A DNA stretch of 27,424 nt. Source: a virus. Positions 2,003-21,488 of this stretch are shown here, piece by piece (position 1 is the stretch's first letter; every line of letters starts with the position of its first letter). The DNA is taken from the IMG/VR virus record IMGVR_UViG_3300044726_000106, positions 1-27,424 of that record; one strand, 5' to 3'. A model generated the notes under the pieces. It had not been told where the DNA came from. It was given only the letters and a program-made list of their open reading frames with translations, and did not search any database. The position numbers and the translations under genes are program-made.

Positions 2003-2641
2003 TTAGGCTTTAGGGTCTTCCTGGCCTGGCGGCGTTTTAGGTGCTTCGAGCGCCGGTTTAACCGTCCGGCGCATAGCCTTCTCGGCTTCAAGCGTCTGCA
2101 TCATGCCTTCTAAGTCTGACTCGCTCATGTCGGCAATGTTGATAGAGGCACGATCGCTCACAGCACGTTCCCCGAAGCCCTGTGGATCTAGCTTTGCGGC
2201 CAGCCATTTGCCTGCGTCGAGTACTAGGCGCCCCTGGGCAACGCCTTCCATCCCCATAGCCTGCATTGCCGTTTCCATCACAACGTCGGCTATGGTGGCC
2301 GCTTGTCTCCGCCGCGCGAGCGCGTAAGCCCTACCGAAATCAGGATAACGTTCTGTCCATTCGTAAATGGTAGCACTCGAAGGCGTGCCCACCTCTGCAC
2401 AAATCGCCACCAAGGTTTCGCCATTGGTAATTCGGTCACATATCTCCGCACCTAAAGCCGGATCATAGGGATAGCGGGGGCGCCCGCGCATTGCGGTGGC
2501 GTGCTGTTCCCTCACTGCCTGTATGTGATCGCGCGGACCTTGCGGGCTTGGCTCCATATGCGGGTAGAGCTCTACCAGGGAGACGCCGAATTCATCGGCC
2601 ATGCGCTGGGTCTCTGCCTTGCGTAGCGGTCTGCCTGCCAT
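2003..2641 (-). CDS. Small terminase subunit-like protein (TerS), 212 aa
   Basis: The protein contains the arrangement seen in Sf6 gp1-like small terminase subunits: a helix-turn-helix at residues about 65-100 (EICDRITNGETLVAICAEVG, then TPSSATIYEWTERYPDFGRAY), followed by the long helix ALARRRQAATIADVVMETA and the KWLAAKLDPQGFGERA segment typical of phage small terminase-like proteins. TerS binds the packaging site and delivers DNA to the large ATPase/nuclease subunit. The large subunit is not adjacent and not in the window, which is unusual because the pair are normally neighbours. The gene stands alone, flanked by non-coding DNA on both sides. A few such HTH proteins are DNA-binding regulators instead, which is the main alternative. 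Confidence 0.75.
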   Translation of the reverse strand: MAGRPLRKAETQRMADEFGVSLVELYPHMEPSPQGPRDHIQAVREQHATAMRGRPRYPYDPALGAEICDRITNGETLVAICAEVGTPSSATIYEWTERYPDFGRAYALARRRQAATIADVVMETAMQAMGMEGVAQGRLVLDAGKWLAAKLDPQGFGERAVSDRASINIADMSESDLEGMMQTLEAEKAMRRTVKPALEAPKTPPGQEDPKA

Positions 2642-2805
2642 AAACCCCTTTATGCCCCAGCCGACGGCGCGCGGGAAAGCCCTGATCTAAACGCCGTCGC
2701 TCCTAAACCGCCTTGCAGGTCTAAAATGTCCGGTTCCTTCCCTCCCCTCCCTCAAAGGGAGAGGCTTCAGGATCTTGGCCTCTTGAGCATGGACGGTTGC
2801 ATCTT

Positions 2806-2841
2806 GGCTTATCGGATCAGGCGAGACTGATCACATAAGCC
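2806..2841. repeat. Nested symmetric inverted repeat, 36 bases
   Basis: Outer arms GGCTTAT (2806-2812) and ATAAGCC (2835-2841), inner arms GATCAG (2815-2820) and CTGATC (2827-2832), each pair separated by two mismatched bases, around a six-base centre. Thirteen base pairs in perfect register are unlikely by chance in a short region. It could act as a DNA operator dyad or as an RNA hairpin; no T-run follows. Confidence 0.65.
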
Positions 2842-2889
2842 CTATATGCGTGTCCGCGCGTTCACTCACTCCAAGTCTCACCCTACACA

Positions 2890-2953
2890 AAGACTGGCTA
2901 CAGTGTGATACGCGCAACACTATACGTGTTGCGTATCACGTAGCCAACGTCTT
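2890..2953. repeat. Long imperfect inverted repeat, 64 bases
   Basis: Left arm segments AAGAC (2890-2894), GGCTAC (2896-2901), GTGATACGC (2905-2913) and AACAC (2916-2920) pair with GTGTT (2926-2930), GCGTATCAC (2931-2939), GTAGCC (2940-2945) and GTCTT (2949-2953). A five-base centre TATAC separates the arms. The left arm has small insertions (AGT at 2902-2904, GC at 2914-2915). It lies just upstream of the rightward promoter for the 3040 gene, fitting an operator, origin or site-specific recombination site. Confidence 0.65.
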
Positions 2954-2977
2954 GTCTATAACCTCCCCGCTTTTCTC

Positions 2978-3005
2978 TTGAAGCTTAAAGCGCGCGAGGT
3001 AAAAT
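2978..3005 (+). promoter_or_regulatory. Rightward promoter candidate ahead of 3040 gene
   Basis: A -35-like TTGAAG (2978-2983), a 16-base spacer and a -10-like TAAAAT (3000-3005) precede the gene at 3040. A strong Shine-Dalgarno AGGAGG lies at 3029-3034. The match to consensus is fair, not perfect. Confidence 0.45.
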
Positions 3006-3039
3006 CCAAATTGCGCACGTAATACATAGGAGGAAGGCG

Positions 3040-3693
3040 ATGGACACGTTTACATGCGGCCAGTGCGGCCAGGTCCGGGCGCTGACGGTGGATGGCAAGC
3101 GACAGAAGGCGGGAGGGCTTTGCCTGGAATGCCGCGCGGGGGCGATTCGGGAACAAATGATCGAAAGGGGGAGCGTGGCGTTACACGTCGTGACCGACGA
3201 TGACGGCGCGGTGGTTGCCGTAGGCGATTGGGGAAAAGTGCTGCACTTCGAGGCGACGGGCCTGAAGCGCGGCCGGACCAAGAGCGGCCGCAAGGTGCAG
3301 TTGTTCGGCTTTGCGGTGGACGACGTGGCGTGGCGCGGGACTTGGTACATGCCGCGCGAAGGCGCCAAAGCCTCCCGCTACGATCAGATGGCGCAGTGCA
3401 AGCGCGTATGGGGAGAGTCGCAGGCGACGGCAAAGGCAGCATGGCCTAAGCCCGCAGGCGACGGCGTACCGCCACACATTGCCGTGCTGGCCGCAGGCAA
3501 TGATGCCTATGCCTCTTATGTGATCGCAGCCGGCGAGCACAACAGGACGCGCGATGCAGGGACGTGGCCTGTTGCAATGCCCTATTGCCACCCTGACGGC
3601 GCGCCGTTCACCGAGGGGGAAGTGAAGGCGCAAATAGTTGTGTTGGGACGTCGAAAGGCGATGGAAAGCGACGCGGGCGACTTTGGCATATAA
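3040..3693 (+). CDS. Zinc-finger-containing hypothetical protein, first rightward gene, 217 aa
   Basis: The N-terminus has a CxxC...CxxC zinc-ribbon pattern: FTCGQCGQVRALT at residues 5-17 and GGLCLECRAGA at about 25-35. The rest (HVVTDDDGAVVAVGDWGKVLHF, then KSGRKVQLFGFAVDDVAW) is beta-rich and not recognised; the C-terminal part is helix-poor. It starts with ATG behind an almost ideal AGGAGG ribosome binding site, so it should be well translated early in infection. It is the first gene downstream of the divergent control region, a position often used for host-takeover or regulatory proteins; that role is inference. No catalytic motif is visible. Confidence 0.8.
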   Translation: MDTFTCGQCGQVRALTVDGKRQKAGGLCLECRAGAIREQMIERGSVALHVVTDDDGAVVAVGDWGKVLHFEATGLKRGRTKSGRKVQLFGFAVDDVAWRGTWYMPREGAKASRYDQMAQCKRVWGESQATAKAAWPKPAGDGVPPHIAVLAAGNDAYASYVIAAGEHNRTRDAGTWPVAMPYCHPDGAPFTEGEVKAQIVVLGRRKAMESDAGDFGI

Positions 3694-3718
3694 ATCGACG
3701 GCGGGACGATAAAAGTTG

Positions 3719-3746
3719 TTGCAATAGGGATAGGGCGGCGTATATA
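3719..3746 (+). promoter_or_regulatory. Promoter candidate for 3773 gene
   Basis: TTGCAA (3719-3724), a 16-base spacer and TATATA (3741-3746) lie in the 79-base gap before the 3773 gene. The -10 is strong. The near-palindrome GAACAAGTTA (3749-3758) sits just downstream at the expected transcription start. Confidence 0.5.
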
Positions 3747-3748
3747 AG

Positions 3749-3758
3749 GAACAAGTTA
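3749..3758. promoter_or_regulatory. Putative operator GAACAAGTTA (site B)
   Basis: Its reverse complement TAACTTGTTC is identical to the sites at 5694-5703 and 10714-10723. It lies directly after the TATATA -10 box and before the RBS CTAGGGAGA (3759-3767), where a bound protein would block transcription. Confidence 0.4.
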
Positions 3759-3772
3759 CTAGGGAGAAGCGA

Positions 3773-3985
3773 ATGGCCAATATGCGGAGCATGCCGACGG
3801 AGGGACCCGCGCCTTGCGGCTTCGAGAAAGGCGACCGGGTGCAGGCGCACCCTGCAACCAACGCATGGATGCGAGGCGACCGATACGGCACCGTAGAAGC
3901 GGCTTCCAGTCGCAAGGTGCAGGTCCGTATGGATCGCAGCGGCAAGCGGTTGAACTTCGCGCCGCGAGACCTGCAACACGTCTGA
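3773..3985 (+). CDS. Small SH3/KOW-like protein, 70 aa
   Basis: A 70-residue protein with the pattern of a small SH3- or KOW-type beta barrel: FEKGDRVQAHPATNAWMRGD, then RYGTVEAASSRKVQVRMDRSGK and a closing FAPRDLQHV. Such modules bind nucleic acid or protein partners; here the role is unknown. ATG start behind the RBS CTAGGGAGA (3759-3767). The TGA stop is inside the left arm of the stem-loop at 3982-4032, so translation termination and RNA folding are physically linked. Probably transcribed from the promoter at 3719-3746. Confidence 0.75.
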   Translation: MANMRSMPTEGPAPCGFEKGDRVQAHPATNAWMRGDRYGTVEAASSRKVQVRMDRSGKRLNFAPRDLQHV

Positions 3986-4032
3986 CAGTCTCGGCTAGGG
4001 CGCCTGCGTGGCGCCCTAGAACGGACTGTCAG
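3982..4032 (+). other. Perfect two-tier RNA stem-loop between 3773 and 4051 genes
   Basis: CTGACAGTC (3982-3990) pairs with GACTGTCAG (4024-4032), and CTAGGGCGC (3995-4003) pairs with GCGCCCTAG (4011-4019), with a symmetric 4x4 internal loop and a 7-base apical loop. Both 9-base stems are perfect. No T-run follows, and an RBS begins four bases later, so this is unlikely to be a simple terminator. An RNA processing, stability or translation-control element is more likely. Confidence 0.7.
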
Positions 4033-4050
4033 CGACTAGGGAGAAAGCCA

Positions 4051-4311
4051 ATGCTTGCATACTTCGATGGCTTGCGCGGGTTAGTGCCCGTCAAGGTGAT
4101 TTACGCCAAAACCATGCCCGGTGGCCTAACCATCGTTCATGGTCGCGTGACAGTCGACGCCAGCGCCCGCGGCTATCCGCGCGGCGAGGTGATCGAAAGT
4201 ACGGGAGTTCGCATGATCCCGCGCGACAAGGTTCGCCGCTTGCGAAGCCGCACGTCGACGCCGCGGATCCTGCCCTATTCCTGGGCCGGTATCGCGATTG
4301 GGGAGGGCTAA
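4051..4311 (+). CDS. Hypothetical protein, 86 aa
   Basis: The start is set at the ATG at 4051 because CTAGGGAGA (4036-4044) lies six bases upstream; the frame stays open further upstream but that part runs through the stem-loop and the preceding gene. The 86-residue product (MLAYFDGLRGLVPVKVIYAK...) is beta-rich with several basic residues near the C-terminus (RDKVRRLRSRTSTPR). It has no recognised domain. It forms a run of small genes with 4315 and 4703. Confidence 0.7.
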   Translation: MLAYFDGLRGLVPVKVIYAKTMPGGLTIVHGRVTVDASARGYPRGEVIESTGVRMIPRDKVRRLRSRTSTPRILPYSWAGIAIGEG

Positions 4312-4314
4312 GCC

Positions 4315-4671
4315 ATGCTGACCTCGTGCCGTCATCGCATCCTGCCCAACGGCGACTTGTTGCTTACCGCCGGCAACGCGCGCCGCTCCTGCCTCGCCGA
4401 CGATTTGCGCGAGCGGGGATCCATCAGCGCCTGGTACTCGCTGATGGTCGACGACTTCAGCAGCAACGGCCACTTGCATCCGGTAGAGCCGGAAGACGTC
4501 GGTGCCCTGACTGACGCGCCGATCATCACGGACGACATGGAATACGCCGACGACGGCGCGCGGATCGTGCGCGGGCGCGTCTGGTGGTTCCCCGACTACT
4601 GCATCCGCGACCCAATGGAAGAACTGGCCCGCAAGGGGCGCGTCATCTTCCAGGCCGCACCAGCGGACTAG
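4315..4671 (+). CDS. Hypothetical protein, 118 aa
   Basis: A 118-residue acidic protein, three bases downstream of the previous stop, with GGGGAGGGC (4300-4308) serving as RBS. It has a helical N-terminal half (ARRSCLADDLRERGSISAWY) and an aromatic-rich C-terminal half (RVWWFPDYCIRDPMEELARK). No family recognised, no signal peptide or membrane segment. Likely an early accessory protein by position. Confidence 0.7.
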   Translation: MLTSCRHRILPNGDLLLTAGNARRSCLADDLRERGSISAWYSLMVDDFSSNGHLHPVEPEDVGALTDAPIITDDMEYADDGARIVRGRVWWFPDYCIRDPMEELARKGRVIFQAAPAD

Positions 4672-4702
4672 CCTGCAACCGTTCAACTAGGGAGAATGAA
4701 CC

Positions 4703-5050
4703 ATGACCTTTACCCCCGTCCGCCGCACTATCGACGAACAGCGAAAAGCGGCGCCGTCAGTGACGCCGCGCACCATCCGCCACGACCTTAATGGTGGGTA
4801 TCTCGCCGACGCCAAGCGTGTCGGCCATAACCGGGCGCTACTCACCTACAGCGATGGTACGCAAGGCTTCATGCTGCACCTGAGCGTGATCGCCTGGCGC
4901 CGGCCCGATGGCCGGGTCTATGTCGACCATTGCGGCTTCAAGACCTCGACGACGCGTGTGGCGATACTGGACGCCCAGGAGATGTTCGGCGTTGTCGATC
5001 GGCGCAACTACTCAATCAAGTCGTTGCCGCCGGGTGAGTGGGTCAACTGA
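4703..5050 (+). CDS. Hypothetical protein, 115 aa
   Basis: ATG start at 4703 behind CTAGGGAGA (4687-4695). The 115-residue product has a polar N-terminus and a beta-rich core with aromatic residues (GGYLADAKRVGHNRALLTYS, then GFMLHLSVIAWRRPDGRVYV) and a THR/SER-rich turn before the C-terminus. No domain recognised. Its TGA shares one base with the ATG of the next tiny gene (TGATG at 5048-5052). Confidence 0.7.
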   Translation: MTFTPVRRTIDEQRKAAPSVTPRTIRHDLNGGYLADAKRVGHNRALLTYSDGTQGFMLHLSVIAWRRPDGRVYVDHCGFKTSTTRVAILDAQEMFGVVDRRNYSIKSLPPGEWVN

Positions 5051-5142
5051 TGCTGACCCTCCTGCGCGCCGGCCTGGCGCTGTTCTACCTGGCGCTGTTC
5101 TGGGCGTCGTGGAGTAATCGACACAAGAAGGGGAGACGATGA
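5050..5142 (+). CDS. 30-residue single-span membrane peptide
   Basis: The frame starts in a TGATG overlap with the preceding stop and ends in an ATGA overlap with the next start, so it fits the operon exactly. The product has one hydrophobic helix, MLTLLRAGLALFYLALFWAS, followed by a basic tail RHKKGRR. Such peptides insert with the basic end in the cytoplasm. It could be a small membrane modulator, but no family is recognised. Its short length lowers certainty; the double coupling and the clean hydrophobic/basic layout favour a real gene. Confidence 0.55.
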   Translation: MLTLLRAGLALFYLALFWASWSNRHKKGRR

Positions 5143-5327
5143 CCTACAACGAAATGCGCAACACCCGCGCCAGCTTCCTCGCCGTGCTGCTGTCGTCCAT
5201 CCGCATGCCCAAGGTTGGCCTGCCGTGGAAGGCACCGACGCCCGTCGACCCGGCGCGCAAGATGAGTGACCGGGAGGTCGCCATGTACGGCGCGGGTGGT
5301 TGCATGGGAAGGTTCCGCAGTGAGTAG
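5139..5327 (+). CDS. Hypothetical protein, 62 aa
   Basis: A 62-residue protein whose ATG overlaps the preceding stop as ATGA (5139-5142), with GGGGAG (5131-5136) as RBS. The sequence (MTYNEMRNTRASFLAVLLSS, then a proline-rich middle and a glycine-rich end GAGGCMGRFRSE) shows no domain. The 3' end overlaps the start of the HTH gene by eight bases. Function unknown. Confidence 0.65.
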   Translation: MTYNEMRNTRASFLAVLLSSIRMPKVGLPWKAPTPVDPARKMSDREVAMYGAGGCMGRFRSE

Positions 5328-5734: not shown

Positions 5735-6769
5735 ATGCTCGACTACCGCGACATCAGCCAGTTCGTGAAGCCCGCCGACGTCAGGGACATCATCTCTTTT
5801 GCCAACGACCCGTTGGCGCCGACGGAGAAGAAACTGCTCGCGGCTTTCGACCATCTCAACGGCATCCTGACACCCGTCATCGAGACAGCGCTGGTGGTCG
5901 AACTGCGCGACGCCATCGAGGAATACGTCGAGGTCATCGGCCCTCGCCCGGAGAAGACAGGCCCCGACCTCGAGGAGTGGCAGCGTGGCTTCGACACGCA
6001 CCTTCGCGCTGCCTTCTCCGCAGAGACACTGGAAGACCTCGGCGAGGGGTGGTGTGACACCTACCTCGTCAACAGCGACCTCGACACCGACGCCGATCTC
6101 GTCAGGCAGGCTGCCCGTGTCGGCGCCGACGCCATTCTCGACGCTGCACTGCGCCGCACGTCGAAGAACAAGATGTTGAGTGCGGTGGACATCGTACCCG
6201 GCCGTTTCGACGAGGCCACAGAGCAGGGAGACTTCGGTACCAATGAAGCAGACCGCTGGCCTGCTTCTGACGCGCCTTTGATGCAGGTCGGCGACATCCT
6301 CGACAACCAGATCGACGGGACGACCGTAGAAGTCGTTGCGGTATGTACCGCTGACGACGTCGAGGATGATTTCGGGATCGAAGCCCCGCCGCCCGTAGCG
6401 ATTGAAGTGGAAGACTTCGGCCTCGACGACACCCCGACTCTTCCACCCGCACCCACTAGGCGCGTGAGGCAGGTAAAGCCCCAAGTGGATCCACACAACC
6501 GGCCAGAGGGCATGCCCTTCATGGCTACCCTGCTCCACACGACCAATCCCGACGCGCTGCGCGTCCTTCTCGCCCTGCGCGAGCATGCCGCCGACAGCGA
6601 CTCCGACCTGGCGCGCGAAATCCTCAAGTGCTCGCGCTCGCAGGTAGGCAACTTCATAAGCGGCAAGATGCCTTTTGCGCCGACGCCAGTGCAGTTGCAG
6701 CAGTTGCGCGATCTCGCCTTCAAGAGGGCGCAGGGGCTGCAGGAGAGCTTGCGGGTGACGGGCCAGTGA
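5735..6769 (+). CDS. Acidic protein with C-terminal HTH-like domain, 344 aa
   Basis: The start is placed at ATG 5735, downstream of the promoter at 5670-5703; an upstream in-frame ATG would overlap that promoter. The first 250 residues are acidic (for example DDVEDDFGIEAPPPVAIEVE) and not recognised. The last 75 residues (ALRVLLALREHAADSDSDLA, then CSRSQVGNFISGKMPFAPTP, QLQQLRDLA) look like a Cro/CI-type HTH: the SRSQVGNFISGK part fits the recognition helix and the loop after it. The same domain makes up almost all of the next protein (6766-7047). This points to a DNA-binding protein with an acidic partner-binding region. Exact role unknown. Confidence 0.75.
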   Translation: MLDYRDISQFVKPADVRDIISFANDPLAPTEKKLLAAFDHLNGILTPVIETALVVELRDAIEEYVEVIGPRPEKTGPDLEEWQRGFDTHLRAAFSAETLEDLGEGWCDTYLVNSDLDTDADLVRQAARVGADAILDAALRRTSKNKMLSAVDIVPGRFDEATEQGDFGTNEADRWPASDAPLMQVGDILDNQIDGTTVEVVAVCTADDVEDDFGIEAPPPVAIEVEDFGLDDTPTLPPAPTRRVRQVKPQVDPHNRPEGMPFMATLLHTTNPDALRVLLALREHAADSDSDLAREILKCSRSQVGNFISGKMPFAPTPVQLQQLRDLAFKRAQGLQESLRVTGQ

Positions 6770-7047
6770 AACCGAGAAGGCGCAGGCGTCCCGGCGGTCC
6801 GGTGATCGTCATGGACGCTCCTACCGATCAACGAGCGCTCAGGCTGCTGCGCGCACTCCGCGCCAATGCGGCTGACAGCGATCAGGTCATAGGGGAGACG
6901 ATCTTCGGATCCTGCCGTTCAACGGTGGGTAACTACGCTATGGGAAGAAATCCTTTCGCGCCTACGCCCGGCCAACTCGAGAAGATGTGCCGCTTGGCAA
7001 CGCGGCGTGCGCTGGCGCTGCTCGCGGCGGTACGAGGGGCAAGCTAG
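6766..7047 (+). CDS. HTH-like protein, paralogue of the upstream C-terminal domain, 93 aa
   Basis: The start is taken as GTG 6766, overlapping the previous TGA as GTGA; ATG 6811 is the alternative. The N-terminus is very basic (KPRRRRRPGGP). The rest, QRALRLLRALRANAADSD followed by CRSTVGNYAMGRNPFAPTP and QLEKMCRLATRRAL, aligns residue by residue with the C-terminal domain of the 5735 gene, sharing ADSD, the S-x-x-V-G-N core and PFAPTP. A tandem partial duplication is the simplest origin. It is probably a small DNA-binding protein able to compete with or pair with its larger neighbour. Confidence 0.7.
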   Translation: MKPRRRRRPGGPVIVMDAPTDQRALRLLRALRANAADSDQVIGETIFGSCRSTVGNYAMGRNPFAPTPGQLEKMCRLATRRALALLAAVRGAS

Positions 7048-8297: not shown

Positions 8298-9658
8298 TGG
8301 CACTGCCGCTCTTTCCCTACCAGCGTGCCGCCGCCGAAGTTCTCTCGACCAAGAGCCGCTTTGGCCTGTTCGACGGGATGGGTCTCGGCAAAACTGCCGA
8401 GATCGTCGGCGCGTTGGATATGTCAGGAGGCCGCTACGGGATCGTTGTTTGCCCTGCGTCTGCTCGAGATGCTGGAATATGGTCCGAACATTTTGCCTCC
8501 TTCTCCGACCGAGCTTCACGAGTGTGCGAAGCCTCAAACGTCCATGACCTGGTCGCTTGGATGCGAGGCCGCTTTGACGTCCTGGTGGTCTCCTACGAAC
8601 AGGCAGTCCAGTGGAAGCGCAGGGTCGATGACGAGGCTCTTGTCCTCGACTTCCTTGTCCTCGACGAAGGCGACTACCTGAAGAACACAGGCTCTAAGCG
8701 CACCGAGGCCATTCTCGGTCCTCAGTGCGACGGACATGGTGGCCTGGCGCAGTGGGCGAAGCAGGTCTTCAAGGTGACGGGCACGCCTATGAGCAACGAT
8801 CCCATCGACATCTACCCGTTCTTGCGGATGGTCGATGCGCTGCGCCTCTCCAAGGAACAGTTCAAGCGCCGCTACTTCAGCAGCTTCGAGAGCACCTATG
8901 GCTCACGCAACACGCCACGGCCTGAAACGCTCAACGAGCTCCAGACGCTGATCTACGCCAACTCGATCTTCCGCACCGAGAAGGACGTCGGGATCCAGTT
9001 GCCGCCGATCACCCTGTCGTCGATCGAAATGCAGGGCGACACCGACGACGTGGCAGCCTTGCTGAAGAACCACCCTGGCCTCGAGGGCGCGATCATCAAT
9101 GCGATCGAGCGAGGCGGCCTGTCCTTCCTCGACAGTCAGCACATTGCCACGCTGCGTCGTCTCGTCGGCGAGGCTAAATCCATTCCGTACGCTCACATGC
9201 TCGCCGACGAGATGGCGGGCAACTGGGAGAAGCAGATCGTTTTCTGCGCCCATACCCAGGCGCTGCTCAACGTGCGCGATGCGCTGGCGCGCTCAGGCAT
9301 CAAGTGCGCTCTGGTGCATGGTGCCAGCGGCAAGGCGGAGAGGCGTGACGCTGTACGCGCCTTCCAGACCGATCCCTCGTGCCGGGTGTTTCTGGGCAAC
9401 ATCAGGGCAGCAGGTACGGCGTTGACGCTGACGGCGGGCTGCCGTGTCGACATGCTGGAGAGCATGTGGGCGCCGGGGCCAAATGCCCAAGCGATCAAGA
9501 GAGCACACAGGCACACGCAGACGCGACCCGTGAGAGCGCGTTTCATCACGTTGGCAGACAGCATCGACGTGGCCGTCAACCGTATCGTCATCGGCAAGAC
9601 GAAGGCCATTGGCGCTATCGAAGGATCGTTGATGCCGTCTATCCCGGTAGCTGCGTGA
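8297..9658 (+). CDS. SNF2-type superfamily 2 DNA helicase/translocase, 453 aa
   Basis: Helicase motifs appear in order: Q-like FPYQRAAAEVL at the N-terminus, Walker A DGMGLGKT (residues 26-33), DEGD in place of DEAH (123-126), KVTGTPMSN (motif III, 159-167), the second RecA-like domain with IVFCAHTQALLNVRDAL and LVHGASGKAERRDAV, motif V FLGNIRAAGTALTLTAGC, and motif VI QAIKRAHRHTQT (398-409). These proteins translocate on double-stranded DNA using ATP. At 453 residues it is the short phage form with no accessory domain. Phage SNF2 proteins are commonly linked to replication or recombination. The gene is coupled to a small zinc-finger gene upstream and to a methyltransferase downstream (GTGA, 9655-9658). 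Confidence 0.9.
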   Translation: MALPLFPYQRAAAEVLSTKSRFGLFDGMGLGKTAEIVGALDMSGGRYGIVVCPASARDAGIWSEHFASFSDRASRVCEASNVHDLVAWMRGRFDVLVVSYEQAVQWKRRVDDEALVLDFLVLDEGDYLKNTGSKRTEAILGPQCDGHGGLAQWAKQVFKVTGTPMSNDPIDIYPFLRMVDALRLSKEQFKRRYFSSFESTYGSRNTPRPETLNELQTLIYANSIFRTEKDVGIQLPPITLSSIEMQGDTDDVAALLKNHPGLEGAIINAIERGGLSFLDSQHIATLRRLVGEAKSIPYAHMLADEMAGNWEKQIVFCAHTQALLNVRDALARSGIKCALVHGASGKAERRDAVRAFQTDPSCRVFLGNIRAAGTALTLTAGCRVDMLESMWAPGPNAQAIKRAHRHTQTRPVRARFITLADSIDVAVNRIVIGKTKAIGAIEGSLMPSIPVAA

Positions 9659-19678: not shown

Positions 19679-19916
19679 GATGGAACTCCTCGAGTTGGCG
19701 CATGGCCTCGGCGTTGGCGCGCGACAGTTCGGCGTTTGCGGCTGCCTGCTTCTGCATGTCCTGAAACGCCTTGAGATTCTTCTCGGCGGCGAGTTTGTAG
19801 ACGGCAGCAGCCGCCTTGTGCTCGATCGCCTCGCCCCGTTCGTAGAAGCCCCAGGCAGCGAGGCCAGCGACGAGGGCGCCACCGACGGCGAGGACAGACA
19901 GCGAGGGAAGGGCCAT
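19569..19916 (-). CDS. i-spanin (Rz-like), 115 aa
   Basis: The start is taken at ATG 19916, which shares a base with the endolysin stop (TGATG); the longer frame to 19970 lies inside the endolysin. The N-terminal segment ALPSLSVLAVGGALVAGLAA is a signal-anchor membrane helix. It is followed by a long alanine-rich coiled coil (AAAAVYKLAAEKNLKAFQDM, then ELSRANAEAMRQLEEF), and the end has a Cys-containing tail (TCPNAP, RLCIERGGTDC). This is the topology of inner-membrane spanins. It works with the nested Rz1 gene and the endolysin upstream in the same operon. Confidence 0.8.
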   Translation of the reverse strand: MALPSLSVLAVGGALVAGLAAWGFYERGEAIEHKAAAAVYKLAAEKNLKAFQDMQKQAAANAELSRANAEAMRQLEEFHLDRSKDILRAIELTCPNAPMDALRRRLCIERGGTDC

Positions 19917-20620
19917 CAGACGGTGATGCCGAGACGCTTCTTCGTCTTGTCGCCGACGATGCCATCCCACTCGCCCGGTTCGTTGGGAAAGAGGGCGCGC
20001 TGGGCGGCGATGACGGCGGTTTTGGTCTCCTCGCCAAAACGACCGTCGACCGGCCCGGCGTAGTAGCCGTGCGTCGCGAGCTCGGCCTGCAGCGCACGGA
20101 CGTCGTCACCGTAATCACCGATGAAGATTGTCCGCGGCGCCGGCGGCTTCACCGGCAGGCCGGCAATCTGCTCGACGGCGTGCTGCACGCCCAGCAAGGC
20201 ATTGGCGTAGTTCGGATCGGTGGCGTAGCCGGCCCGCTGCAGCGCCTCGAAGTACTCTTGGTCACTCTTGATGTTGCCGGGATCGAAGACGCCGGCGGCA
20301 GCGTAGCGGCTGTTGACCTTCAGGAAGTTGAAATGGTCGGCAAAGCTGTCGGCCACCGTGTCGTAGTCGCGGAAGCCCTGTCCGTGCTGAATCTCCGACT
20401 GGCCGTTGATGACCTCGCGCGTCGTGATGTACTGGACCTTGCCCTTCCACGACGAGTCGGCCCTGATTCCAAAAATATTATTCCCGATGGCCGCGGCCCC
20501 CCAACCCGTCTCAAGTGCTGCCTGCGCCACGATTGCCGAGGGCGAGCAGCCGATCATTTTCGCCGTGAACTCGGCGGCGGCGAGCCAGTCGTGAACGAGA
20601 CGGACGCGATCAATCGGCAT
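19916..20620 (-). CDS. Endolysin: glucosaminidase (GH73-like) with peptidoglycan-binding domain, 234 aa
   Basis: Residues 1-150 form a FlgJ/GH73-like N-acetylglucosaminidase domain: CSPSAIVAQAALETGWG with the catalytic Glu (E37), then NNIFGIRADSSWKGK, FRDYDTVADSFADHFNFL and an ALQRAGYATDPNYANALL end typical of the family. Residues about 165-234 are a PG_binding_1 domain (GDYGDDVRALQAELATHGYY, DGRFGEETKTAVIAAQRALF). No signal peptide is seen, so a holin should release it; a holin candidate is at 21689-21904. It cuts the glycan strands of peptidoglycan at lysis. It is the first gene of a lysis cassette with Rz and Rz1 downstream. Confidence 0.9.
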   Translation of the reverse strand: MPIDRVRLVHDWLAAAEFTAKMIGCSPSAIVAQAALETGWGAAAIGNNIFGIRADSSWKGKVQYITTREVINGQSEIQHGQGFRDYDTVADSFADHFNFLKVNSRYAAAGVFDPGNIKSDQEYFEALQRAGYATDPNYANALLGVQHAVEQIAGLPVKPPAPRTIFIGDYGDDVRALQAELATHGYYAGPVDGRFGEETKTAVIAAQRALFPNEPGEWDGIVGDKTKKRLGITV

Positions 20621-20644
20621 GGTGCATCCTAAGTAGAAAGCGGA

Positions 20645-20662
20645 AGTACAGTAACATGTACT
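20645..20662. repeat. Small inverted repeat upstream of endolysin gene
   Basis: AGTACA (20645-20650) and TGTACT (20657-20662) around a six-base loop, 25-42 bases upstream of the endolysin start codon on the minus strand. It could be a protein-binding dyad or RNA hairpin in the endolysin leader. Confidence 0.35.
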
Positions 20663-20727
20663 TCAAAGGCTCTCCAGTCTATGCTCGATTACGTGCTGTT
20701 GTCGGTATGACGGCCTTATAACCCGTC

Positions 20728-20748
20728 GTCTCGGCCCCACTCCGAGAC
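20728..20748. repeat. GC-rich hairpin between HNH and endolysin genes
   Basis: GTCTCGG (20728-20734) pairs perfectly with CCGAGAC (20742-20748) around CCCCACT. There is no T-run on either side. It lies in the 162-base gap between the divergent HNH and endolysin genes and may mark the edge of the HNH insertion or act as a weak terminator for the minus-strand structural genes. Confidence 0.4.
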
Positions 20749-20782
20749 CCCGGCAGCAGCACACTTGAAGTGGGAGATACCA

Positions 20783-21295
20783 ATGCTAGGACGTGAATTT
20801 GGCCACTTAATCGTCTGTTTCCGGGAGTGGACATCTTCTTCTCGTCCGGGCTCTCGTCTGTGGCTCTGCGCCTGCGTGTGCAACCAGATGAAGGTAATAG
20901 ACGAGCAGGATCTCGTCCGCAGCCGGGTTATATCTTGTGGTTGCATCCTTATCCGCCCGGCTCCGAGAACCCCTCAAGAGCGCGTATTGTGGCGCACATG
21001 GATGGGGATGATCAGGCGTTGCTACTGGCCGCGCTCGGTATCCTACGGAAACTACGGAGGGCGGGGAATCACGGTCTGTGAGAGATGGATACGTTCATTC
21101 GAGGATTTTAAGACGGATATGGGCCCTAGGCCGTCTGGAAAGACGTTAGACCGGATAAATAATGACGGTAACTATGAGCCCGCCAATTGCAAGTGGTCCA
21201 CTGGTCGGGAACAGAAGCTAAATCAGCGCGTCCCGATTTTCCGTTTCCCGTTCAATTCACGGAGGCCCCGGTATCGTAAATTGCATGCGGATTGA
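20783..21295 (+). CDS. HNH homing-type endonuclease, 170 aa
   Basis: ATG at 20783 is chosen because GGGAG (20772-20776) is six bases upstream; an in-frame TTG at 20765 gives a longer form. The N-terminus has the usual phage HNH lead domain: LGREFGHLIVCFREW, WLCACVCN and VISCGC, a zinc-ribbon-like module. The nuclease part is MIRRCYWPRSVSYGNYGGRG followed by ITVCERW, then LDRINNDGNYEPANCKWS, with the Asn/Asp and Asn-Cys-Lys-Trp positions of this HNH group, and REQKLNQR. The gene is on the plus strand between minus-strand genes and uses noticeably more AT-rich codons than its neighbours, signs of a mobile homing endonuclease gene. It interrupts what would otherwise be a continuous leftward lysis/tail operon. 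Confidence 0.88.
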   Translation: MLGREFGHLIVCFREWTSSSRPGSRLWLCACVCNQMKVIDEQDLVRSRVISCGCILIRPAPRTPQERVLWRTWMGMIRRCYWPRSVSYGNYGGRGITVCERWIRSFEDFKTDMGPRPSGKTLDRINNDGNYEPANCKWSTGREQKLNQRVPIFRFPFNSRRPRYRKLHAD

Positions 21296-21377
21296 AGAAA
21301 CCTTCGTCTGGCTGCTGCTGGTGCTCGCTGCGGCCATTGCAATCCGCAACAACCTCCCGGCCGTGACCTTTCGGTGA
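21285..21377 (+). CDS. Possible 30-residue membrane peptide
   Basis: An ATG overlapping the last bases of the HNH gene opens a 30-codon frame ending at TGA 21375-21377. The product (MRIEETFVWLLLVLAAAIAI, then RNNLPAVTFR) has one clear hydrophobic helix with a basic end. It lacks a strong RBS and may rely on coupling to the HNH gene. It could be a real membrane peptide or a remnant of a gene displaced by the HNH insertion. Confidence 0.4.
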   Translation: MRIEETFVWLLLVLAAAIAIRNNLPAVTFR

Positions 21378-21488
21378 TTGGCGGCGCCCCAGCCCCTTAG
21401 CGGGGGCTAAGAGCACGTGGCCGGGACGCCGCCTGTCAACGCTAGGGAGAGTCGACGGGCGGACAATAACATTGTCACGGAGAAGCGT
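21378..21488. other. Non-coding stretch with hairpins and orphan RBS leader
   Basis: Contains the hairpin AGCCCC/GGGGCT (21391-21408), an orphan copy of the phage leader CTGTCAACG-CTAGGGAGA (21433-21450) and the dyad GACAAT/ATTGTC (21462-21476). No start codon follows the orphan RBS at a usable distance. No gene seen. Confidence 0.5.

Follow-up and report, generated by a model that had tools for sequence, protein, structure and literature searches.

A possible operator over one of two predicted divergent promoters in the TerS–E1 gap of a phage record

The 398-bp gap between the terminase small-subunit gene (TerS) and the early-type genes of this phage is most economically read as a divergent promoter pair, in which a 64-base imperfect dyad (dyad 2) would act as operator on the leftward promoter, P_left. 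Judged from features of the DNA, this reading has about an even chance of being right. The larger dyad is probably an ordinary on/off control site and not something new; the kind is already known, and this instance of it is new. If true, the reading names the point at which the phage would choose between early and late transcription, with two promoters and one operator open to test.

Gene layout and the two dyads

The window, meaning the whole stretch of DNA analysed, is IMG/VR record IMGVR_UViG_3300044726_000106 (27,424 nt), which IMG/VR classes as linear, often a fragment. The features in and around the gap are as follows.

2003–2641, minus strand: TerS gene, Sf6-type terminase small subunit (Pfam PF20901, 93 bits against a cutoff of 27; phrog_1482, 3.7e-25)
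2642–3039: divergent gap, 398 bp, no called genes (GC 0.53 against 0.63 for the window)
2806–2841: dyad 1, 13 pairs, two mismatched positions, 6-nt loop; marginal against shuffles
2890–2953: dyad 2, 26 pairs, three bulges, 5-nt loop, from dyad scan, folding and base-by-base pairing; proposed operator
3040–3693, plus strand: E1, first rightward gene, 217 aa, with CxxC...CxxC near the start of its translation

The coding layout is one of divergent units around a non-coding gap. That the space between the leftward TerS and the first rightward gene is non-coding, as the preliminary description of this DNA had claimed, was borne out: no called gene falls in 2642–3039, and only two mechanical ORFs of ≥30 aa (34 and 43 aa) lie wholly inside it. 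Rightward genes run through 19247 as an early-type operon that includes a Holliday junction resolvase, a helicase, a methyltransferase, an exonuclease, a Gp2.5-like SSB, a DNA polymerase, and a primase/helicase. E1 itself gave no family match and no tblastn match in the phage collection. TerS is taken as the first gene of the leftward block. Six small leftward ORFs lie to its left, four of which were searched and gave no Pfam match; none has the length needed for a TerL, the longest called frame being 186 aa. The endolysin gene (19916–20620) is leftward, as are the called genes between 21489 and the end of the window, with a rightward HNH endonuclease gene (20765–21295) amid them. From TerS, the endolysin, and position, we infer that the leftward block is late. 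Gene calls for the dyad and gap statistics were made with a codon-usage caller of our own and not with a standard program. This caller cut the TerS of the window short, and the bounds of that gene were set by hand. It also missed the HNH gene and E7b, a small gene described below, so two of the 11 window "gaps" (6770–7046 and 20621–21488) hold a gene.

Dyad 2 comprises 26 Watson-Crick pairs in four blocks (5+7+8+6) with no mismatches and a TATAC loop. Its bulges are AGT (2902–2904) and CG (2913–2914) in the left arm and AC (2947–2948) in the right arm, which corrects the earlier view that insertions are confined to the left arm. The coordinates first given for both dyads were right, as was the statement that they are unrelated in sequence (no common 7-mer); they are indeed separated, by 48 bases and not the 50 reported. 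In a bulge-tolerant scan, dyad 2 was the top dyad of the window with a score of 15.4, above all 100 whole-window dinucleotide shuffles (maximum 14.8). When each unpaired base was charged in a linear-gap-cost scan, it ranked joint fourth, and 60 whole-window shuffles reached scores of up to 19; the significance of dyad 2 is therefore conditional on allowing bulges. Its single-stranded DNA folding z-score was −6.8, with none of 200 shuffles as good, for a stretch already chosen beforehand. Among the 11 window gaps, only the one with dyad 2 and that at 3986–4050, home of a two-tier hairpin (3982–4032), went beyond their own shuffles (p=0.003 each). The arms of dyad 2 do not recur elsewhere in the window beyond chance, a spaced-pattern search for each dyad in viral_contigs returned no matches, and an Rfam search of 2500–3200 gave two matches far under gathering scores, neither overlapping a dyad.

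Dyad 1 has 15-base arms, of which 13 positions pair (mismatches C2813/C2834 and G2814/A2833), around a GCGAGA loop. It is exactly symmetric and only marginally rare: a dyad at least as good arose in 99 of 1000 gap shuffles, and an ungapped dyad within 40 bp matched it in 19 of 500. On its own, dyad 1 is weak.

The stems of both dyads are stable, as they would be in intrinsic terminators closing both transcription units. That reading is scarcely credible, as the genes flanking the gap point away from it, no terminator-like sites were found in 2600–4300, and neither dyad is followed by a T tract on either strand. The combination of a GC-rich stem and a T run that marks an intrinsic terminator was thus not found at the dyads.

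Promoter-like sites and the proposed operator

Two outward promoters are present in the gap at the level of consensus.

2919–2947, minus strand: P_left, sigma70-like TTGGCT-17-TATAGT, third best site of the window, inside dyad 2
2978–3005, plus strand: P_right, sigma70-like TTGAAG-16-TAAAAT, best site of the window

The matrix and consensus were those of E. coli sigma70 and may not suit the host. In a matrix scan of the whole window on both strands, ranks 1 (P_right) and 3 (P_left) both fell in this 398-bp gap, and rank 2 lay upstream of the early gene E7. A consensus scan of 2600–4300 found P_left and P_right alone, against a shuffle mean of 0.7. The two sites face outward, each toward one of the gene blocks, and their −35 boxes begin 30 bp apart. 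P_left (2947–2919) lies wholly within dyad 2 (2890–2953), and its −10 box (2924–2919) covers the dyad centre, the block centres running from 2920.5 to 2923. From box positions, transcripts would be expected to start near 2912 for P_left and near 3012 for P_right. A control switch had been among the roles first suggested for the region, and this suggestion has gained evidence: of the three top-ranking sigma70-like sites in the window, two stand back to back here, one of them inside dyad 2.

If active, P_right would drive the rightward early operon from E1, and P_left would drive TerS, possibly together with the leftward genes that follow. Dyad 2 would cover P_left from about −41 to +23, centred on the −10 box, so that a twofold-symmetric regulator bound to it as DNA would occlude P_left. 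An effect of such a regulator on P_right is conceivable too, the −35 box of that promoter beginning 25 bp from the dyad edge. Dyad 1 would fall within the leftward transcript's leader and may be a second operator or a leader hairpin. Counting against an operator, the bulges shift the four block centres by up to 2.5 bp; a strict DNA operator needs no bulges, whereas an RNA hairpin tolerates them.

The lambda PR/PRM promoters with OR are an example of a divergent phage promoter–operator region. The proposed arrangement resembles it in its back-to-back promoters, a dyad on one of them, and helix-turn-helix-like early proteins. It differs in that the pair seems to separate early from TerS/late genes, in that dyad 2 is 64 bp with bulges and not a set of short operators, and in that no repressor gene lies directly beside it; the operator role of dyad 2 is putative.

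Cumulative GC, AT, and purine skew all reach their window minima at 2977–2979. This minimum is what divergent transcription would leave, and a replication origin could do so too. GC skew had been proposed beforehand as a check for an origin, and a minimum was found there, but it is ambiguous, since divergent transcription fits equally. An origin, with the dyads as initiator-binding or strand-opening sites and replication starting from 2.9 kb, would also agree with a gap AT-richer than the window and with the ability of dyad 2 to fold as single strands. However, the skew turns where transcription diverges and keeps no steady slope afterwards, and the primase/helicase gene is 14 kb distant. No direct-repeat family in 2300–3400 had more than two copies, and DnaA-box-like sites with one mismatch allowed numbered five in the window, one of them at 2953–2961, against 6.1 expected. 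A phage-specific initiator might use other sites, but with iterons and DnaA boxes not above chance, only the skew minimum remains of the original proposal of a replication origin, which we now consider improbable.

A role as a pac or cos site, to which the adjacent TerS would bind for packaging, is more improbable still. The Sf6-type TerS gene does start only 165 bp left of dyad 1, and in headful phages with an Sf6-type TerS, pac lies within or near the small-subunit gene. Such a pac is not known as a large dyad, and the record is of the linear class, often a fragment. Origin and packaging are both without specific support, and a divergent promoter pair with dyad 2 as operator on P_left is the reading carried forward.

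Divergent gaps and hairpins in related phages

The gap had no DNA relatives in phages (only 25–26-base matches at chance level under a lax limit) and none in plasmids, and single-protein searches with TerS, E7, and E1 in viral_contigs found no relatives. An alignment search with two helicases recovered 31 viral contigs at 43–50% identity (L176–L206); helicase identity to the window was 46% for L091 and 32% for L014. A broader helicase set comprised at least 80 viral loci, and a polymerase set at least 80 loci from genomes. A divergent gap before early genes was seen in eight of 33 mapped loci (L014, L091, L179, L180, L181, L184, L195, and L203), many of the others not reaching far enough to include one. 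These eight gaps span 433–1940 bp, all larger than the 398 bp of the window.

Across the nine gaps, the best dyad reached p<0.05 against its own shuffles in five (the window, L179, L184, L180, and L195). L014 gave 0.053, and three were within chance (L181, 0.136; L203, 0.140; L091, 0.618); the combined p over the eight relatives was ~1e-4. The preliminary description had named related phages that keep the gene order and lack the dyads as evidence against it. That pattern was not seen in these distant relatives, four of the eight having dyads at p<0.05 and one at 0.053. The dyads of relatives have no sequence relation to those of the window, and even for L179 and L184, whose helicases are 77% alike, the gap aligns only in parts. 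In just two of the nine gaps, those of the window and L014, does a dyad overlap any of the five promoter-like sites that score best in the locus.

TerS was located next to the gap in two relatives only: in L014, and in L184, where four small genes intervene and the TerS, of a different family, lies left of the gap. The L014 TerS is of the same family as that of the window and leftward (28% over 97 aa). Between it and the rightward genes lies a 53-bp dyad that overlaps a rightward TTGACA-17-GATTCT (rank 5 in the contig); no relation of the first large rightward L014 protein to E1 was detectable. The L014 gap was set by hand to 2053–2485, the caller having missed TerS, and holds a small called ORF (2151–2312). 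In L195, a single called 35-codon ORF at the contig end defines the left edge of the gap. Minus–plus gaps arising from a single minus ORF in the early region (L192, L201, and a second gap in L014) were left out of the nine, as was L123 (stretch L175), which has a leftward TerS match as well. L024 and L027 were rejected as examples of the same layout, a leftward ORF of 613 or 774 aa, respectively, lying between the leftward TerS and the gap. TerS matches in the MAG that holds L091 were on contigs other than that of L091 and were not used. Sf6/BPP-1-like TerS neighbourhoods (L007, L014) likewise pair a leftward TerS gene with rightward replication genes. In BPP-1, a terminase family gene is next to TerS and a cI/Cro pair lies elsewhere, whereas in the window six small ORFs lie left of TerS. 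Separately, the divergent gaps of L091 (521–569) and L203 (4250–4297), from phages with helicases 76% alike, share a 49-base block that is 86% alike.

Hairpins are frequent in the gaps of this lineage. Among 188 co-directional rightward gaps in 33 relatives, near-duplicates included, 50 held hairpins at a shuffle p≤0.03 where ~5.6 were expected; near-identical contigs (e.g., L176/L177 and L191/L205) were kept separate in this count. At the same threshold, 3 of 12 gaps between divergent genes and 3 of 12 between convergent ones held hairpins, as did 3 of 15 between co-directional leftward genes; divergent gaps are thus no richer in them than other gaps. Gaps whose best dyad scored <7 (188-gap count) or <8 (the wider set used for GU pairs) were scored negative without shuffles. 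Several relatives' hairpins are built of two stems, lower and upper, separated by an internal loop, and some begin at the preceding gene's stop codon. As gap hairpins are a lineage habit, the presence of a dyad does not by itself prove an operator, and their frequency in co-directional gaps makes an RNA role the main rival of the operator reading. Dyad 2, and perhaps dyad 1, would then be an RNA hairpin, for example an RNase III processing site such as T7 early mRNA carries, in a long leader transcribed from a promoter further upstream, which we regard as doubtful.

Several observations favour this rival. Dyad 2 would form an irregular 64-nt hairpin, long, bulged, and without mismatch, and the divergent gaps of all eight relatives (433–1940 bp) are longer and leave room for a leader. 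The window also contains a two-tier hairpin.

3982–4032, plus strand: second strong hairpin of the window, lower stem of 9 bp, internal loop, upper stem of 10 bp (bulge-tolerant scan, folding)

It lies between E2 and E3, begins at the E2 stop codon, has no T tract, and ranked joint second in the bulge-tolerant scan (13.0, tied with 9160–9212). In L181, one two-tier hairpin is repeated after five successive early genes (2270–2329, 3178–3236, 4024–4091, 4669–4729, and 5104–5162), with a conserved inner loop (AGACCTGTA / TTACTAGCCT) and compensatory changes in 6 of 19 stem pairs. In the wider set, GU pairs in 114 hairpins without a T tract favour the transcribed strand by 102 to 71 (p=0.022 against 0.5; p=0.0007 against a composition share of 0.46, itself taken from a smaller set). 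Hairpins of this set start 1–20 bases past the upstream stop codon in 45 cases, against 25 expected under uniform placement. A hand list of 49 hairpins, including three of the window, gave GT:AC strand counts of 48 to 31.

Other observations weigh against it. Neither predicted transcript would hold the whole dyad 2 hairpin, since the sole good rightward site is downstream of the dyad and the expected P_left start falls within it; further left, the best rightward candidate (2700–2727) ranks only 88. Dyad 2 shows no strand preference in folding (−32.5 vs −33.0 kcal/mol), fails to match the L181 hairpin model, and has no Rfam match above threshold. A covariance model (R1) built from the five L181 copies, run over 34 sources, found none in the 33 besides L181; with filters off, it gave no match at dyad 2 and only E=1.3 at 3973–4039. 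The GU excess is modest, with GT:AC strand counts of 99 to 83 at a lower score cutoff, and it is absent at a higher one (66 to 63).

Gap hairpins are habitual in these phages and belong, at least in part, to the RNA level. T7 R1.1-type RNase III hairpins (PMC8708148) are irregular stems of ~50–65 nt with bulges or internal loops. Dyad 2 resembles them in its long, irregular, bulged stem, and it is unlike them in that the predicted promoters place it outside both transcripts. We think it rather unlikely that dyad 2, the 3982–4032 hairpin, and the relatives' hairpins form one lineage-wide two-tier RNA hairpin habit that cuts or shields early mRNA, with upper stems that change fast and an inner loop conserved within one phage, most clearly in L181. 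If this were true, dyad 2 would be the copy in the leader, and its overlap with P_left would set RNA processing in competition with late-promoter control for the same DNA. The abundance of gap hairpins in distant relatives, with compensatory changes in one, could open RNA processing in this group to testing.

Candidate regulators and repeated motifs

With dyad 2 as an operator on P_left, a phage helix-turn-helix protein such as E7 or E7b would be a candidate binder, and no more than a candidate.

5735–6769, plus strand: E7, early protein with a C-terminal helix-turn-helix-like domain, candidate regulator (tblastn, alignment)
6811–7047, plus strand: E7b, small second copy of the E7 domain, 48% over 71 aa (alignment, predicted fold)

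By tblastn, the E7/E7b domain was found in L176, L177, L185, and L206 (E 0.010–0.025); a further match in L009 (E 0.17) looks like chance. The domain of E7 and E7b was aligned with 11 relatives, namely L177, L185, and L206 plus ORF ends from eight further relatives, hand-chosen by similar position. The predicted structure of E7b is all helical (pLDDT 91), and among its top Foldseek matches lambda-repressor-like and other helix-turn-helix proteins predominate; no match reaches significance (best E 0.26), which leaves the fold as a suggestion only. Predicted fold and position make E7 and E7b candidate binders, and no link between either protein and the dyads was found.

The motif TAACTTGTT[CA] has four exact copies in the window (1755, 3749, 5694, and 10714), each in an intergenic stretch close to a promoter-like site; allowing one mismatch gives five, against 0.55 expected. 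It is absent from the divergent gap, and is possibly a shared operator or phage promoter element. Together, the helix-turn-helix-like copies in E7/E7b and this motif make site-specific transcription control likely in this phage. Two further words recur in gaps. ACTAGGGAGA is found in four window gaps (3758, 4035, and 4686, and 1705 on the minus strand) and is probably an extended ribosome-binding site, and AAACGCGTT occurs 12 times in L190 and eight times in L186, in four gaps each, as a possible repeated operator.
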